DNA of 10,000 nt. It comes from Flavobacterium sp. GTDB taxonomy: Bacteria > Bacteroidota > Bacteroidia > Flavobacteriales > Flavobacteriaceae. Below, piece after piece: positions 2,994-10,000 of this stretch (positions are counted from its first letter, which is position 1; every line of letters starts with the position of its first letter). Under the pieces are notes generated by a model. It was not told the origin of the DNA. It was given only the letters and a program-made list of their open reading frames with translations, and made no database searches. The DNA lies in NCBI RefSeq assembly GCF_020217025.1, contig NZ_JAIWOF010000113.1, forward strand, positions 1-10,000, read 5' to 3'. Position numbers and translations under genes: made by a program.

Positions 2994-3037
2994 ATGATTT
3001 TTATCATATTAAAGGATGTTTTTGTCCTTTAATTTTG
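2994..3037 (+). promoter_or_regulatory. nirK promoter: FNR-type box plus -7 element
   Basis: ATGAT-TTTT-ATCAT (2994-3007) is a perfect palindrome with the N4 spacing of CRP/FNR-family sites (family consensus TTGAT-N4-ATCAA; the outermost base pair differs here). After 22 bp comes TAATTTTG (3030-3037), a full match to the Bacteroidetes -7 consensus TAnnTTTG. If transcription starts about 4 bp after this element (near 3041), the box is centred near -41, the classical position for an activator that contacts RNA polymerase, which would explain why no -33 TTG is needed. The leader would be about 60 nt. The same spacing recurs at ric and norC. Confidence 0.72.
3009..3032 (+). promoter_or_regulatory. 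AAAGGA-N8-TCCTTT palindrome at the nirK promoter
   Basis: TTAAAGGA (3009-3016) and TCCTTTAA (3025-3032) are perfect inverted 8-bp arms around an 8-bp centre. The site fills the gap between the FNR-type box and the -7 element and overlaps the first bases of the latter. The same palindrome with the same spacing stands before norC, and a degenerate one before ric. Its position would suit a repressor; an Rrf2/NsrR-type NO sensor is one candidate, but this is inference and no regulator gene is in the window. Confidence 0.7.
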
Positions 3038-3101
3038 ACCTATAAAATGATAGTAACGAAACTATTATTGAAACCAATATTTAAAACTAATTTTTTCTAC
3101 C

Positions 3102-4571
3102 ATGAGTAATTTTATTAAAAGAGTTCTTGTATTGTGTGTGGCTTGTGCAGCAAGTATTGCATGTAAACAGAACGGTGACTCAACAACCAACTATGCTGAT
3201 ATCTCTGTTGGTGATGAAATGATTGCAGAATTAACAGCGCCTCCATTTGTACCAAAACCTGTTGGAGATCGTCCTGCTAAAAAATTAATTGTAAACATGG
3301 AAATTAAAGAAATCGAAGGAGAAATGGCCGACGGTGTTAAATATGTTTACTGGACTTTTGGTGGTAGTGTACCAGGAAGTTTTATTAGAACTAGAGTAGG
3401 TGATGAAGTAGAATTTACTTTGAAAAATCACCCAGACAACAAATTGCCTCACAACATCGATTTACATGCCGTTACAGGTCCAGGTGGTGGAGCTGCTTCT
3501 TCTTTAGTAGCACCGGGACATGAAAAAACTTTTAATTTTAAATGTATCAATCCAGGATTATATGTGTACCACTGTGCTACAGCTCCTGTAGGGATGCACA
3601 TTGCAAACGGAATGTACGGATTAATTTTGGTAGAGCCAGAAGGTGGTTTACCTCCAGTTGATAAAGAATACTACGTAATGCAAGGTGATTTTTATACCAA
3701 AGGAAAAAATGGAGAACCAGGAATGCAACCTTTCGACATGACAAAAGCCGTTGATGAACATCCTGATTATGTAGTTTTTAATGGGAAAGTTGGTGCTTTA
3801 ACTGGTGACAAAGCGTTAACCGCTAAAGTGGGTGAAACCGTTAGAATTTACATGGGTAACGGTGGACCAAATTTAGTCTCTTCGTTCCACGTTATTGGAG
3901 AGATTTTCGACAGAGTTCATATTGAAGGTGGCGATGCAATCAATAAAAATGTTCAAACAACATTAATTCCTGCTGGTGGTTCTGCTATCGTAGAATTTAA
4001 AGTAGATGTTCCAGGAACTTTCATTTTAGTGGATCACTCCATCTTCAGAGCGTTCAACAAAGGAGCATTAGGAATGTTAAAAGTAGAAGGTGCTGAAAAT
4101 GCTAAAATTTACTCAGGTACAACACAAGAAGGTATTTATCACCCAGAAGGAGGAACTATTCAAACGATGCCAAAATCAGGTAATGGAAAAGAAGTAGTGG
4201 TAAACAAAACATTAGACCAACAAATTGCCGATGGTAAAAATATTTATGGAAGAACTTGTTTCGCTTGTCACCAATCAGAAGGTCAAGGTATTCCTGGTGC
4301 TTTCCCTCCATTAGTAAAATCTGATTTCTTAAATGCAGATCCAAACAGAGCAATCAATGCAGTACTTCATGGATTAAGTGGCGAAATTACAGTAAATGGT
4401 AAAAAATTCAATTCAGTAATGACTAGTCAAAACCTTACCGATCAAGAGATTTCAGATGTTTTAACATATGTGAATAACAGTTGGGGTAATAACAAAACCA
4501 AAGTAACTCCTGAAATGGTTAAAACACAAAGAGCAAAACCAGCTCCAAAATCAAAAGATATGCACGAATAA
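3102..4571 (+). CDS. nirK: Copper-containing nitrite reductase with fused C-terminal cytochrome c domain (lipoprotein)
   Basis: It reduces nitrite to NO. Residues 1-21 form a lipoprotein signal with lipobox SIA|C (Cys21), so the enzyme is likely membrane-anchored on the periplasmic side. Two cupredoxin domains follow (about 60-335). Type-1 copper ligands are H117, C158, H166 and M171. Type-2 ligands are H122, H157 and H312. D120 and H263 match the catalytic Asp and His of the family. A linker leads to a class-I cytochrome c domain (about 375-480) with heme site CFACH (C386, C389, H390) and probable axial Met440. The 489-residue length equals a normal NirK core plus one heme domain; such fusions are known in NirK. 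First gene of a five-gene operon, 27 bp before a near-copy of its own cytochrome domain. Confidence 0.97.
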
Positions 4572-4598: not shown

Positions 4599-5024
4599 AT
4601 GAAAAAAATAGTATTGAGTGCCATCGCACTTATCGTAACCGGAACTTTAATCAGTTTTAAATTACCAACAACTAAAACATCTGAAGTAGTGACATTTCAG
4701 GATGTAAATAAAGGAAAAGCAATTTTTAGTAAAACATGTATCGCATGCCATCAGGCAAACGGACAAGGAATTCCAAATGCGTTTCCTCCTTTAGCAAAAT
4801 CTGATTACCTAAATAAAGATGTTAACAGAGCCATTAAAGTGGTATTAAACGGATTAAGCGGACCTATTACTGTAAATGGCAAAAAATTCAATAGTGCGAT
4901 GACTAGTCAAGGATTAAGCGACCAACAAGTAGCGGATGTACTGACTTATGTTTACAGCAGTTGGGGAAATAACAATACCAAAGTTACTCCAGCTATGGTA
5001 AAAGCACAAAGAGGTAAAAAATAA
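4599..5024 (+). CDS. Small class-I cytochrome c, near-copy of the NirK heme domain
   Basis: A 141-residue exported cytochrome c. A hydrophobic N-terminal segment (about 4-20) serves as signal peptide or anchor; no lipobox is seen. One heme site, CIACH (C47, C50, H51), and probable axial Met101 in FNSAMTSQ. From about residue 39 to the end it aligns without gaps to the C-terminal domain of NirK: by hand count about 74 of 103 positions are identical, including GKKFNS, the MTSQ motif and the shared tail WGNN-TKVTP-MVK-QR. This points to duplication of the heme domain. The likely job is electron delivery to NirK, or possibly to NorCB. Which came first, the fused or the free copy, cannot be told here. 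Confidence 0.93.
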   Translation: MKKIVLSAIALIVTGTLISFKLPTTKTSEVVTFQDVNKGKAIFSKTCIACHQANGQGIPNAFPPLAKSDYLNKDVNRAIKVVLNGLSGPITVNGKKFNSAMTSQGLSDQQVADVLTYVYSSWGNNNTKVTPAMVKAQRGKK

Positions 5025-5064: not shown

Positions 5065-5835
5065 ATGAAACGATTTCACTACTGCCTAATTTTATTATCT
5101 TGGGTTTCCATTTCTTTTTCTCAGGTGCCCGAAGATATGGTAACCATTGGAGCAGGGAGTTACGTTCCGTTATATGGAACAACAGATAAGAAACCAGTGA
5201 ACATCAAATCCTTTTTGTTAGATGTATATCCGGTAACGAATCAACAATATTTAGAATTTTTGAAAAAAAATCCGGCTTACCGAAAATCAAAAATCAAACG
5301 TCTTTTTGCCAATACAACTTATTTATCAGAATGGAGTGGCGATTTAAGTTTCGGACAATTAAATGCAAATGCGCCTGTAACTAACGTTTCTTGGTTTTCA
5401 GCTAAAGAATACTGCGAATGTCAAGGTAAAAGATTAGCCACTTTAGACGAATGGGAATATGTAGCCATGGCAGATGAAAAACGAAAAGACGCTCGTTCAA
5501 AAGAAGAATTCAATAAATACATCTTGAGTTGGTACGAAAAAAACAAAACCTATAACAATTCCGTAGGGAAAACATTCAAAAATTACTGGGGTGTTTACGA
5601 TATGCACGGATTGGTTTGGGAATGGACTTTTGATTTCAATAGCATTTTTTTATCAGGAGAATCCAGAAAAGATAAAGATACCGATAAAGATTTGTTCTGC
5701 GGAAGTGGTTCTGTCAATGCCTCCGATTTAATGAATTATGCCGCTTTTATGCGTTACGCTTTCAGAGGCAGTATAAAAGCAAATTATACAACAAAAAATT
5801 TAGGTTTCCGATGTGCCAAAAACATCGCTAATTGA
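5065..5835 (+). CDS. nirV: NirV-like protein, formylglycine-generating-enzyme (SUMF1/FGE) fold
   Basis: 256 residues from the ATG at 5065, which gives a clean signal peptide (KRFHYCLILLSWVSISFSQ); the upstream in-frame ATG at 5050 would add five residues before it and is less likely. The mature part has FGE-family marks: EDMVTIGAGSY (23-33), LLDVYPVTNQQYLEFL (51-66), NAPVTNVSWFSAKEYC (102-117), GKRLATLDEWEY (121-132), GLVWEWTFDF (182-191) and the end motif NLGFRC (245-250). NirV, a protein of this fold, is encoded next to nirK in several proteobacterial denitrifiers; its role is unsettled. By manual alignment both catalytic cysteines of true FGE appear replaced (M and F), so formylglycine formation is unlikely. 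A structural or maturation role for NirK is an inference from the neighbours. Confidence 0.82.
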   Translation: MKRFHYCLILLSWVSISFSQVPEDMVTIGAGSYVPLYGTTDKKPVNIKSFLLDVYPVTNQQYLEFLKKNPAYRKSKIKRLFANTTYLSEWSGDLSFGQLNANAPVTNVSWFSAKEYCECQGKRLATLDEWEYVAMADEKRKDARSKEEFNKYILSWYEKNKTYNNSVGKTFKNYWGVYDMHGLVWEWTFDFNSIFLSGESRKDKDTDKDLFCGSGSVNASDLMNYAAFMRYAFRGSIKANYTTKNLGFRCAKNIAN

Positions 5836-7879: not shown

Positions 7880-8602
7880 CTAATAAAACTTATCTTGTAA
7901 AACAATGGCACTTGGAAACAAAATATTATTTTCTAAATGAATGTGCGCATGTAAATCCGCTTCAAATTCTTGTAACATTTTATAAGTTACTTTGTACGTG
8001 TTACAAGCATCTGCTGGTGGAGTGTAGTTGTTTGATAATTCTACAATTTTTTCAAATCGTTCACCTTCATTTTCATGTTCTTCCATCATCATGGCAATAG
8101 GATTGGCTACAGAACCAAATCCAGGATTGTTGATGGGTGTATTATTTCGATTAGCTTCTACCATTTTTTTGATAAACGGAAACAGAATTAACTCTTCTTT
8201 TTTCATGTGTTGCGTTAATTCATCCGCACTTCTTTTGAATAATTTTTTAATTTCAAAAAGTTCTGGATGGTGAGCACCATGTACTTGTTCCAACTTAAGT
8301 AAAAACGATAGCAATTGCGGAATTTTTTCTTCCACATATCGATGGTGTTTTTTCTCAATATAATCAATTAACAAATCCAATTCCCAAGATTTAAAATCGA
8401 TTCCTTGATTGTTGTTGTTTGCCGTAACACGTTCTAATTCGTCTAAAAGCGCATATTTATCAATGCCTTTTTTTGCACATACTTCATCGATTGTTCGGTT
8501 TCCTTTACAACAAAAATCGATACCTAGTTGACTGAAAACACCTGCAGTTCTATAATCATCTGCTACTATGTTTCCCACTGTTTTGTTTGAATCTATTACC
8601 AT
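7880..8602 (-). CDS. ric: Iron-sulfur cluster repair di-iron protein (RIC; ScdA/YtfE/DnrN family)
   Basis: A cytoplasmic di-iron protein that helps restore Fe-S clusters damaged by NO or peroxide. It has 240 residues, the usual length. Residues 1-60 are the ScdA N-terminal domain, with the paired cysteines in LGIDFCCKGNRTIDEVC (C31, C32). The rest is a hemerythrin-like four-helix bundle with metal ligands expected among H86/H87, H111/H112, H132 and E136 (HMKKEEL), H176 (MEEHENEG), and H218/H222/E224 in LHAHIHLENNILFP. It runs toward the nirK operon and away from norCB, sharing a control region with norC. That fits a role in handling NO made by NirK. Homologues next to nor genes are called dnrN in some denitrifiers. 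Confidence 0.95.
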   Translation of the reverse strand: MVIDSNKTVGNIVADDYRTAGVFSQLGIDFCCKGNRTIDEVCAKKGIDKYALLDELERVTANNNNQGIDFKSWELDLLIDYIEKKHHRYVEEKIPQLLSFLLKLEQVHGAHHPELFEIKKLFKRSADELTQHMKKEELILFPFIKKMVEANRNNTPINNPGFGSVANPIAMMMEEHENEGERFEKIVELSNNYTPPADACNTYKVTYKMLQEFEADLHAHIHLENNILFPSAIVLQDKFY

Positions 8603-8619
8603 AATAATGTATTGTTTAA

Positions 8620-8643
8620 ATAAAAGACAAATTTATCCTTAAT
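8620..8643 (-). promoter_or_regulatory. Degenerate AAAGGA-N8-TCCTTT site over the ric promoter
   Basis: Read on the minus strand, the core is TAAGGA, an 8-bp centre, then TCTTTT: the same spacing as at nirK and norC, with 10 of 12 core bases kept. It is not perfectly palindromic, so binding may be weaker. It completely covers the predicted ric -7 element (8628-8635) and ends 19 bp before the ATG. Confidence 0.5.
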
Positions 8644-8671
8644 TTAATTTTCATAGTATGATTTGAATCAT
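8628..8671 (-). promoter_or_regulatory. ric promoter: FNR-type box plus -7 element
   Basis: On the minus strand the box ATGAT-N4-ATCAT (8658-8671) is followed after 22 bp by TAAATTTG (8635 down to 8628), a full match to the Bacteroidetes -7 consensus TAnnTTTG. The start would fall near 8624, placing the box centre near -41 as at nirK. No -33 TTG is seen. The leader would be about 22 nt. Confidence 0.68.
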
Positions 8672-8701
8672 AACGAATGTTTTTTTTTGGCAGTTATTTT
8701 G
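8658..8701 (+). promoter_or_regulatory. norC promoter using the same FNR-type box
   Basis: The same box, ATGAT-TTGA-ATCAT (8658-8671; 7-bp perfect arms TATGATT/AATCATA when extended to 8657-8672), is followed on the plus strand after 22 bp by TTATTTTG (8694-8701), which matches TAnnTTTG except for T in place of the A. Transcription would start near 8705, about 50 nt before the norC ATG. One box could thus serve two back-to-back promoters. Confidence 0.6.
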
Positions 8702-8708
8702 TACTTAA

Positions 8709-8732
8709 TTAAAGGATAAAAATATCCTTTAT
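8709..8732 (+). promoter_or_regulatory. AAAGGA-N8-TCCTTT palindrome upstream of norC
   Basis: TAAAGGAT (8710-8717) and ATCCTTTA (8724-8731) are perfect inverted arms around a 6-bp A/T centre. Flank, core sequence and N8 spacing match the nirK site. It lies just past the predicted norC start and 24 bp before the ATG, a position suited to a repressor or roadblock. Confidence 0.7.
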
Positions 8733-8755: not shown

Positions 8756-9187
8756 ATGTTATCAAAATCACAAGCACGAGCATTTTTTTTAGGAGGAACC
8801 GTAGTAACCTTTTTAGTCTTTATCGGCTTAACCATTTACTCGTTCATGCCTAAAAATGATCAAACTTATCATGATAAGATTGATGCAAAAGTTATTCGAG
8901 GAAAGGAAATCTGGGAATCGAATAATTGTATGGGTTGTCATACCATACTTGGGGAAGGAGGCTACTACGCACCTGAACTTACCAAAGTAATCGAAAGAAG
9001 AGGAGAAGGCTATGTAAAAGCCGTTTTACAATCGCCAATTCCTTGGGGACCAAAAGGCAGAAAAATGGTAAAATACGAAATGAACGATGCCGATGCCGAA
9101 GCTGTAATTGCCTATTTCAAATGGATAGGAAACATTGATTTGAATGGGTTTGAACGCGTGGTTTCACCTTTAGCTAAAGAAGAATAA
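8756..9187 (+). CDS. norC: Nitric oxide reductase small subunit, membrane-anchored cytochrome c
   Basis: NorC passes electrons from periplasmic donors to the NorB catalytic subunit. The 143-residue length is typical. One N-terminal membrane helix (about 10-30, AFFLGGTVVTFLVFIGLTIY) is followed by a periplasmic heme domain: RGKEIWESNNCMGCH (C58, C61, H62), then LGEGGYYAPELTKV and the GPKGRKMVKYEM segment with the candidate axial Met (M104 or M109), ending in the helix AVIAYFKWI. The motif order is characteristic of NorC rather than of other small cytochromes. It is the first gene of an operon with norB, 17 bp downstream. Confidence 0.96.
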   Translation: MLSKSQARAFFLGGTVVTFLVFIGLTIYSFMPKNDQTYHDKIDAKVIRGKEIWESNNCMGCHTILGEGGYYAPELTKVIERRGEGYVKAVLQSPIPWGPKGRKMVKYEMNDADAEAVIAYFKWIGNIDLNGFERVVSPLAKEE

Positions 9188-9204: not shown

Positions 9205-10000
9205 ATGAAATATAAATCACAAAAAGTAGCGTATTGGTTCTTTGGATTATGCATGTTATTATTTGCATTACAAATTATCTATGGTTTTATTATGGGCTTT
9301 GCCCGAATTGGAATGGATGGTCTTCACGATTTTATTCCGTTCAATACAGCAAGAGCTGTTCACACGAATTTATTAGTAGTTTGGTTATTAACTGGTTTCA
9401 TGGGAGCCGCTTATTATATCATTCCTGAAGAAGCACAACGAGAATTAGTCAATGTCAAATTGGCTTATGTGCAGTTGATTTCATTAGCTGTTGTTGGCGT
9501 TTTAGCAATCGTTGGCTATCACTTTAATATTTGGGAAGGTCGAAAATTTCTTGAAATTCCAAGAGAATTAGATGTTTTAGTAGTAATCAATGTCTTATTG
9601 TTCTTAGGATTAATCCTTACCACTTTATTCAAAGCAGAAAGACGAACTACAACTTCATTAGTTTTAACAATGGGATTGGTTTTTGCTGCCTTATTATATT
9701 TACCAGGTATGATTTGGTTCGATAGCCAAGTAACGGATTCATTCTTCCGTTGGTGGGTAGTACATTTATGGGTTGAAGGTGTATGGGAACTAATCATGGG
9801 CGGTATTTTATCGTACTTGTTAATCAAGCTTACAGGTGTTGACCGAGAAGTTATTGAGAAATGGTTATACGTAATCGTTGGTTTGACATTCCTTTCAGGT
9901 TTATTAGGAACAGGTCACCATTACTACTACATCGGAGTAAATAAAATTTGGTTAATTGTAGGTGGAATTTTCTCAGCATTAGAACCATTAGCATTCTTAG
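9205..10000 (+). CDS. norB: Nitric oxide reductase large subunit NorB (cytochrome-c type), 3' truncated by window
   Basis: NorB reduces two NO to N2O at a heme b3/non-heme iron centre in the membrane. The first 265 codons are present, starting at the ATG at 9205 (MKYKSQKVAYWFFGLC). Visible landmarks are H53 in TARAVHTNLLVVW (low-spin heme b ligand), H187 with E191 and E195 in VVHLWVEGVWELIMGG (iron FeB ligand His and the conserved glutamates), and H238-H239 in GTGHHYYYIG (further FeB ligands). The spacing from H187 to H238 equals that of the Pseudomonas NorB H207 to H258. The short N-terminus directly after norC fits the two-subunit cNOR, not the quinol-dependent qNOR with its long N-terminal extension. 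About six hydrophobic segments lie in this part. Confidence 0.96.
   Translation, partial: MKYKSQKVAYWFFGLCMLLFALQIIYGFIMGFARIGMDGLHDFIPFNTARAVHTNLLVVWLLTGFMGAAYYIIPEEAQRELVNVKLAYVQLISLAVVGVLAIVGYHFNIWEGRKFLEIPRELDVLVVINVLLFLGLILTTLFKAERRTTTSLVLTMGLVFAALLYLPGMIWFDSQVTDSFFRWWVVHLWVEGVWELIMGGILSYLLIKLTGVDREVIEKWLYVIVGLTFLSGLLGTGHHYYYIGVNKIWLIVGGIFSALEPLAFL

Follow-up and report, generated by a model that had tools for sequence, protein, structure and literature searches.

The 10-kb window analysed here (C99, one piece of a 2.53-Mb assembly) carries the following genes: nirK, coding for a copper nitrite reductase; ric, coding for a di-iron protein of iron-sulfur cluster repair, on the opposite strand; and a norC-type and a norB-type gene (Table 1). 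The norB-type open frame runs past the window end into the piece C100, which joins the two; a further piece, C101, is next by gene order and holds more nos-type genes. In a profile search residues 375-465 of NirK gave a weak match to cytochromes. By eye, this terminal cytochrome c domain (window 4230-4540) looks like a close copy of the product of the next gene, a 141-aa cytochrome c (4599-5024).

Table 1. Genes and candidate promoter elements of the window, with positions relative to predicted transcription starts.
Feature	Positions	Strand	Remarks
Activator box ATGATTTTTATCAT, nirK	2994..3007	.	predicted -48 to -35; exact box, spacing and -7 element also at nirK of four same-genus genomes
nirK composite (box to -7 element)	2994-3037	+	exactly 22 bp between
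Inverted repeat AAAGGATGTTTTTGTCCTTT, nirK, candidate Rrf2-family operator	3011..3030	.	~-31 to -12; the nirK repeat has this position in four same-genus genomes too
-7 element TAATTTTG, nirK	3030..3037	+	at -12 to -5, TAnnTTTG placed after PMC9723704; predicted start near 3042
nirK, copper nitrite reductase; cytochrome c domain at its C-terminus	3102..4571	+	TIGR02376, 354.5 bits (cut-off 296.3)
ric, ytfE/scdA type; di-iron protein of iron-sulfur cluster repair	7880..8602	-	TIGR03652, 252.5 bits (cut-off 204.7)
Inverted repeat TAAGGATAAATTTGTCTTTT, ric	8622..8641	-	overlaps -7 element and predicted start, ~-18 to +2
-7 element TAAATTTG, ric	8628..8635	-	exact TAnnTTTG; predicted start near 8623
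ric composite	8628-8671	-	exactly 22 bp between box and -7 element
Activator box ATGATTTGAATCAT, common to ric and norC	8658..8671	.	palindrome, between both genes
norC composite	8658-8701	+	exactly 22 bp between box and -7 element
-7 element TTATTTTG, norC	8694..8701	+	one mismatch; predicted start near 8706
Inverted repeat AAAGGATAAAAATATCCTTT, norC	8711..8730	+	~+6 to +25; the genome's only zero-mismatch AAGGATA-N4-TATCCTT
norC-type membrane cytochrome c	8756..9187	+	PF00034, weak PF22085; gene name by context
norB-type subunit	9205..9999	+	PF00115, 119 bits; gene name by context

The window has two ATGAT-N4-ATCAT boxes (2994-3007 and 8658-8671), and these are followed by a -7 element of the TAnnTTTG type, which is exact at nirK and ric and has one mismatch at norC. 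The first-pass annotation had described this geometry at three genes as occurring in three independent directions: the composites do lie where it placed them, with 22 bp in each, but there are two boxes and not three, since ric and norC share the one at 8658-8671. The -7 elements of norC, of the nos operon and of a 596-aa gene downstream of the window are without the TA. A Bacteroidota sigma-A promoter carries a TTG as its -33 element, 17-19 bp before the -7 element, and inspection of the window sequence found no TTG at this distance 5' of the -7 element at nirK, ric or norC. In the named-genome scan described below, the nirK and ric promoters recur in near-identical form in F. proteolyticum and F. 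odoriferum, on which ground the window's genus is taken to be Flavobacterium.

Identical spacing had been held to be hard to get by chance, and the calculations bear this out: using the local intergenic frequency of -7 elements, the probability that at least three of four box directions have a -7 element (at most one mismatch) at one fixed spacing is ~3e-5, or ~1e-3 after allowing for 41 spacings, and a peak at 22 bp is found across the family independently of the window. A+T-rich DNA may yield boxes and -7 elements whose equal spacing is coincidental, and boxes with at most one mismatch do arise by chance in such a window (mean of 0.81 in shuffles as against the two seen, both exact). We nevertheless reject chance, to which we attach a negligible probability, on the strength of the local p, the family-wide spacing peak at 22, the gene enrichment and the counts in nirK regions versus shuffles, all given below.

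To follow the spacing across the family, the box and TAnnTTTG were allowed any separation of 12-32 bp in 299 Flavobacteriaceae genomes, 192 of which contain the free-spacing composite. Among the 150 matches listed, the spacing is 22 bp in 104 and 23 bp in 19, with every other spacing occurring at most four times; in the 104 members with 22 bp, the positions -33 to -31 are T-rich, have G in at most 6% and never read TTG. If TAnnTTTG is placed at -12 to -5, as in PMC9723704, the box spans -48 to -35 with its centre at -41.5. The earlier proposal of a CRP/FNR-family activator centred near -41, which would replace the missing -33 element, is supported by the spacing peak, by the lack of TTG at -33 to -31 and by the co-occurrence of box and regulator. 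A box centred at -41.5 has the geometry of FNR class II activation, and an activator site that overlaps the -35 region at 22 bp from a -10-type element, as in that class, is what the 104 of 150 matches listed contain, with the start position predicted from the -7 element. A phylum-wide draw of 296 genomes, with spacings counted among the matches listed, gave 22 bp in 44 of 67 matches from the same genus, 4 of 17 from the order (with 5 at 23 bp), 6 of 23 from the class and 2 of 17 from the rest of the phylum. In these matches the peak is sharp in the genus, weak in the order and class and absent from the rest of the phylum, and a phylum-wide code is unsupported.

The spelling of the box was examined in 120 genomes by leaving the outer bases of the N22 composite free, which gave 313 matches versus 7 in the reversed control. 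Among 150 matches listed, ATCA is followed by T 121 times, by G 15 times, by A 12 times and by C twice, where the TTGAT of FNR would give A. The distal half-site thus has A as its outer base in 121 of the 150, and the half-site here is ATGAT rather than the FNR half-site TTGAT. The lineage-specific core suggested at the outset is thus upheld. A second class of box, TGAC-N4-GTCA, likewise has the spacing of 22 bp in 107 of 149 matches listed. The regions upstream of nirK, taken like those of ric as the best 30 loci of more matches with the window included, have the composite at up to two mismatches in 19 of 30, against 0.05 expected from 20 shuffles; the exact ATGAT box occurs in 7 of the 30, and the boxes with two mismatches mostly read TGAC-N4-GTCAT. 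The TGAC-N4-GTCAT class is used in the nirK regions of several relatives and may mark a DNR-like reader.

The genes behind the composite were collected by a scan of named genomes, which comprised at least 117 stretches (8 of them clearly from outside Bacteroidota and taken as chance), at least 121 matches and at least 112 downstream proteins. Nearest genes and start codons were chosen automatically; the proteins were clustered, and the clusters were named via single representatives against NCBIfam, with ric and nirK recognized by likeness to the window proteins. The largest clusters among these at least 112 proteins are: subunit I/II of the cbb3 oxidase (ccoN) with 17 members; hemN, the oxygen-independent coproporphyrinogen oxidase, with 8; and the cytochrome that heads the nos operon with 5. 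Further genes among the matches listed are ric (2), nadA (2), nirK (1), flavohaemoglobin (1) and hemA (1).

The window's own genome has ten places with at most one mismatch: these precede hemN, nirK, ric, norC, the 596-aa gene, the nos operon, ccoN and ompW, with two further places lacking a gene. Five of the ten fall within the 20 kb of C99-C100 (p ~8e-9), and two of the remaining seven still do so when the nirK, ric and norC sites are left out (p ~1e-3). The expectation that a genome scan would find the composite concentrated near nitrogen-oxide genes was thus correct as far as this clustering goes, but hemN, ccoN and ompW carry it too. We therefore reject a regulon confined to denitrification, given that ccoN and hemN head the named matches; as predicted from these gene sets, the regulon is a general low-oxygen one that takes in the cbb3 oxidase, hemN, nir, nor, ric and nos. 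At up to three mismatches the genome has 166 places versus 101 in the reversed control, which are mostly noise. There are 19 two-mismatch places, and among those whose downstream genes were inspected (11, plus the promoter of a Crp gene, with C209 alone annotated by tool) several appear to precede housekeeping genes. Together, spacing, spelling and gene content support ATGAT-N4-ATCAT-N22-TAnnTTTG as a putative family-wide low-oxygen promoter code with a DNA spelling of its own.

The 596-aa gene (C100:5796-7586) has its box at 5695, followed at a spacing of 22 by TTTATTTG; its product has no match in Pfam or NCBIfam. A Mariniflexile protein that resembles it by eye has an exact composite. On account of the box and this look-alike, the gene is a candidate for a new low-oxygen or denitrification function.

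Four Crp-type proteins of the window's genome exceed the cut-off. One is the product of an FNR-like gene (C209:7091-7765), which stands head to head with the gene of a heavy-metal P-type ATPase; we take this neighbour to be the cbb3 assembly gene ccoI. Aligned to E. coli FNR, this protein keeps E209 and R213, while V208 is replaced by T and S212 by I. Of the four FNR cluster cysteines (C20, C23, C29 and C122) three align, with S or N at C29, and other conserved cysteines are present. It scores 83.9 bits against the NCBIfam Fnr model PRK11161, below the cut-off of 228. Its E-S-x-I-R motif is kept in all 28 aligned FNR-like relatives (28 of 29, one locus having given no sequence), preceded by T in 26 and by V in 2. 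The position of V208 presumably equals position 180 of CRP. The genomes of the two V-bearing relatives (G110 and G115) have ATGAT composites, so T at this position is not strictly needed. PMC1274295 describes CRP position 180 as correlated with which base stands at this end of the half-site.

A census of regulators in the 120 genomes found an FNR-like orthologue in 69; in 25 the only candidate is a receiver-CRP type protein (~350 aa, receiver-cNMP-HTH), in 8 there are only other Crp proteins and in 18 none at 1e-10. The composite, with outer bases free, is present in 61 of 69, 22 of 25, 6 of 8 and 3 of 18 of these genomes, respectively. This amounts to 83 of 94 genomes with an FNR-like or receiver-CRP protein versus 3 of 18 with neither (p 3e-9) when the eight genomes with only other Crp proteins are set aside, and p is 1e-7 when these eight are pooled with the 18. 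The 25 receiver-CRP genomes were assigned by the length of the open frame among the matches listed, and all 8 that were read do have a receiver. The recognition helix is T-E-x-x-I-R in all 10 receiver-CRP fusions read, on one of which the Pfam domains were run. Ten such Flavobacteriaceae fusions of receiver, cNMP and HTH_Crp domains, 349-362 aa long, are mostly encoded beside apparent histidine kinase and universal stress protein genes. From this co-occurrence we consider it likely that the FNR-like protein, or in some genomes the receiver-CRP fusion, reads the ATGAT box. A wider reading is that one fixed code serves either of two unlike sensors: the FNR-like protein, whose Fe-S cluster is putative, or a receiver-CRP fusion that a histidine kinase would drive. 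An Rrf2 repressor and its new operator would be added as an NO gate at the denitrification genes. Both sensors could read the same code since their altered recognition helices are much alike (T-E-x-x-I-R as a rule), and the low-oxygen regulon would therefore have changed its sensor without changing its sites. We put this forward tentatively, at somewhat below even probability. The literature search returned, among the matches listed, no paper whose title concerns a receiver-CRP fusion taking over FNR-type sites.

The boxes at the denitrification genes could instead be served by a Crp-type gene of the island itself. Its product, a Crp/Fnr paralogue (C101:6441-7028, helix VETVIR), would act as a DNR-like NO sensor in place of the C209 FNR-like protein: the gene sits in the same island as the denitrification genes; its own promoter (C101:7071-7114) has the hybrid box ATGATTTCAGTCAT, a spacing of N22 and then TTAATTTG; and TGAC-N4-GTCAT boxes, whose class shares the spacing peak (107 of 149 matches listed), stand in the nirK regions of many relatives. 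Against this, the code is not tied to denitrification, for composites occur in 192 of 299 genomes and nirK of this kind in 48 of 249, with ccoN and hemN leading the named matches. The paralogue also has V at the V208 position, a weak argument in that two FNR-like relatives have V too. We regard the paralogue as an unlikely, though serious, contender and retain the FNR-like protein as the favoured reader.

All three promoters of the window have a second element, which was missed in the first-pass annotation. This is a 20-bp inverted repeat with the core GGATA-N4-TATCC, which overlaps the -7 element or lies near the start. Genome-wide, AAGGATA-N4-TATCCTT is matched best at norC (no mismatch) and next at the nos promoter (one mismatch); at up to two mismatches there are 17 places versus 23 in the reversed control, i.e. 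background, and 5 of the 17 are in the 39-kb island. Four same-genus nirK promoters and one norC promoter, chosen from a list for their look, preserve the order of box, repeat and -7 element. The repeat, searched for with a degenerate pattern that was drawn up after examples had been seen, is present at up to one mismatch in 17 of the 30 nirK regions, against 1.3 expected from 50 shuffles. A composite with three mismatches or fewer occurs in 22 of the nirK regions, and 16 of these 22 have the repeat as well. In 11 of the 16 the repeat is centred at +12 to +21 and in the window at -21; two have it near -60 and two elsewhere.

At ric, the presence of the repeat follows that of an Rrf2 gene: among the 29 best-scoring ric relatives, it stands 5' of ric at all 24 loci where an Rrf2 gene is adjacent and at none of the 5 where it is not (p 8e-6), as counted with the same degenerate pattern, widened at one position for this count. 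The unwidened pattern is found in 24 of 30 ric regions, window included, versus 0.5 in shuffles. The adjacent Rrf2 genes at the 24 loci are just upstream of ric, and 57-66% identical to the island gene C101:10562-10999. None of the 29 relatives has the composite within 260 bp of ric, and the pair of box and repeat is therefore not general at this gene; the composite is present at ric in two named genomes (L091 and L110). A similar repeat occurs in four of five divergent Rrf2 promoters read (the fifth has one half only), the partner gene being a nos-type cytochrome; the Rrf2 proteins beside nos are 38-42% identical to the C101:10562 protein.

Both Rrf2 proteins of the island carry the cysteine cluster C-x6-C-x5-C. 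They pass the Rrf2 superfamily model TIGR00738 (79 and 87.7 bits against a cut-off of 73.3) and fail the NsrR equivalog PRK11014 (22.3 and 34.4 bits against 182). The closest PDB entry to the C101:15347 protein is Streptomyces NsrR (5n07, E 7e-4), with IscR and another Rrf2 protein close behind. An operator at NO-detoxification genes such as ytfE/ric is a trait of NsrR, and the repeat 5' of ric would be its counterpart if an Rrf2 protein binds there. The two Rrf2 genes belong to a block (C101:10562-15781) with a cytochrome c gene, a COX1-like gene and nadB- and nadA-like genes, perhaps including a second nor-type pair; a GGATA-type repeat separates the nadA-like gene from one of the Rrf2 genes.

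The position of the repeat bears on what it may do. At ric, norC and the window's nirK it overlaps the -7 element or is close to the start, and in 11 nirK regions it is centred at +12 to +21, all of which fits repression. At nos in the window's genome and in two of the 30 nirK regions, however, it lies near -60, just 5' of the box: this is an odd place for a simple repressor, which counts against repression and suits a second dimer acting as an activator or co-activator, at least at these promoters. Given the other positions, we judge such a positive role improbable. Alternatively, the repeat could form an RNA hairpin or attenuator instead of a DNA operator, as its place just 3' of the predicted start at norC and in 11 nirK regions would permit; yet in the window and in four same-genus genomes the nirK repeat lies 5' of the predicted start, its stem is short and A+T-rich and Rfam gave no match at the gathering threshold. 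We accordingly disfavour an RNA element and rate it as very improbable.

Bringing box and repeat together, we propose that nirK, ric and norC are probably governed by FNR-like activation combined with an NsrR-like repression that NO lifts. The sequences show both elements, their fixed spacing and conservation, the gene sets and the joint occurrence with regulator genes; the pairing of proteins with sites, activation as opposed to repression, the clusters, the signals and the starts are predictions. An FNR-like dimer, active at low oxygen, would bind ATGAT-N4-ATCAT at -48 to -35, contact RNA polymerase in class II fashion and thereby stand in for the missing -33 element beside the Bacteroidota -7 element TAnnTTTG. 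An NsrR-like repressor of the Rrf2 family, in which three cysteines are clustered, would occupy as a dimer the GGATA-N4-TATCC repeat at the -7 element or start and block transcription until NO damages its presumed cluster. With such an activator and an NO-released repressor, nirK, ric and norC would therefore need both low oxygen and NO.

The activator half of this model resembles the E. coli FNR class II promoters (TTGATnnnnATCAA centred at -41.5) in the 14-bp palindrome, the 22 bp to a -10-type element, the lack of a -35-type element and the low-oxygen genes downstream. It differs from them in that the outer base is A/T and not T/A, in the Bacteroidota TAnnTTTG element and in the regulator, where T and I take the places of V208 and S212 and C29 has no cysteine as its counterpart. 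The layout as a whole, with an activator box upstream and an NO-repressor operator downstream, is that of the E. coli hcp-hcr promoter, where, according to PMC1274295, an FNR site lies upstream and an NsrR site downstream; the operator proposed here is GGATA-N4-TATCC and not gATGyAT-N5-ATrCATc, the activator box differs, and the setting is Bacteroidota. According to the same paper, NsrR regulons also cover dnrN/ytfE and, in some proteobacteria, nirK and norB, and DNR or NnrR, activators of the Crp/Fnr family like the one proposed here, control nir, nor and nos from upstream in proteobacteria; unlike theirs, the box here stands before ccoN, hemN and further low-oxygen genes as well, and it is joined by an Rrf2-type site.

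Within the phylum, the promoter map of F. psychrophilum (PMC9723704) shares with the present code both TAnnTTTG at -12 to -5 and cbb3 oxidase and haem genes, which it reports as induced at low oxygen; neither FNR nor CRP is named in its main text. A Flavobacteriales CRP/FNR homologue of an anammox community has been predicted, in PMC8510549, to have a MalR-like role in sensing carbon and not oxygen, which counts against the low-oxygen model; the main text of that paper contains no ATGAT or TTGAT string.

In the literature searched, which omits most subscription papers, we found no description of either the ATGAT box or the Rrf2 operator GGATA-N4-TATCC. What appears to be new is a lineage-specific FNR box joined with this operator, while the kind of control, FNR-type activation together with NsrR-type repression, would be a known one. 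Many genes for nirK, norB and clade II nosZ are found in Bacteroidota, and to our knowledge little has been described of how these bacteria regulate denitrification and the reduction of nitrous oxide. The code explains how a promoter that lacks a -33 element could be turned on, and it may provide a case of a changed FNR site alongside changed recognition residues. Most surprising, if true, would be the capacity of a receiver-CRP fusion to take over the same sites. A readable oxygen/NO code would allow the prediction of regulons across Bacteroidota genomes.
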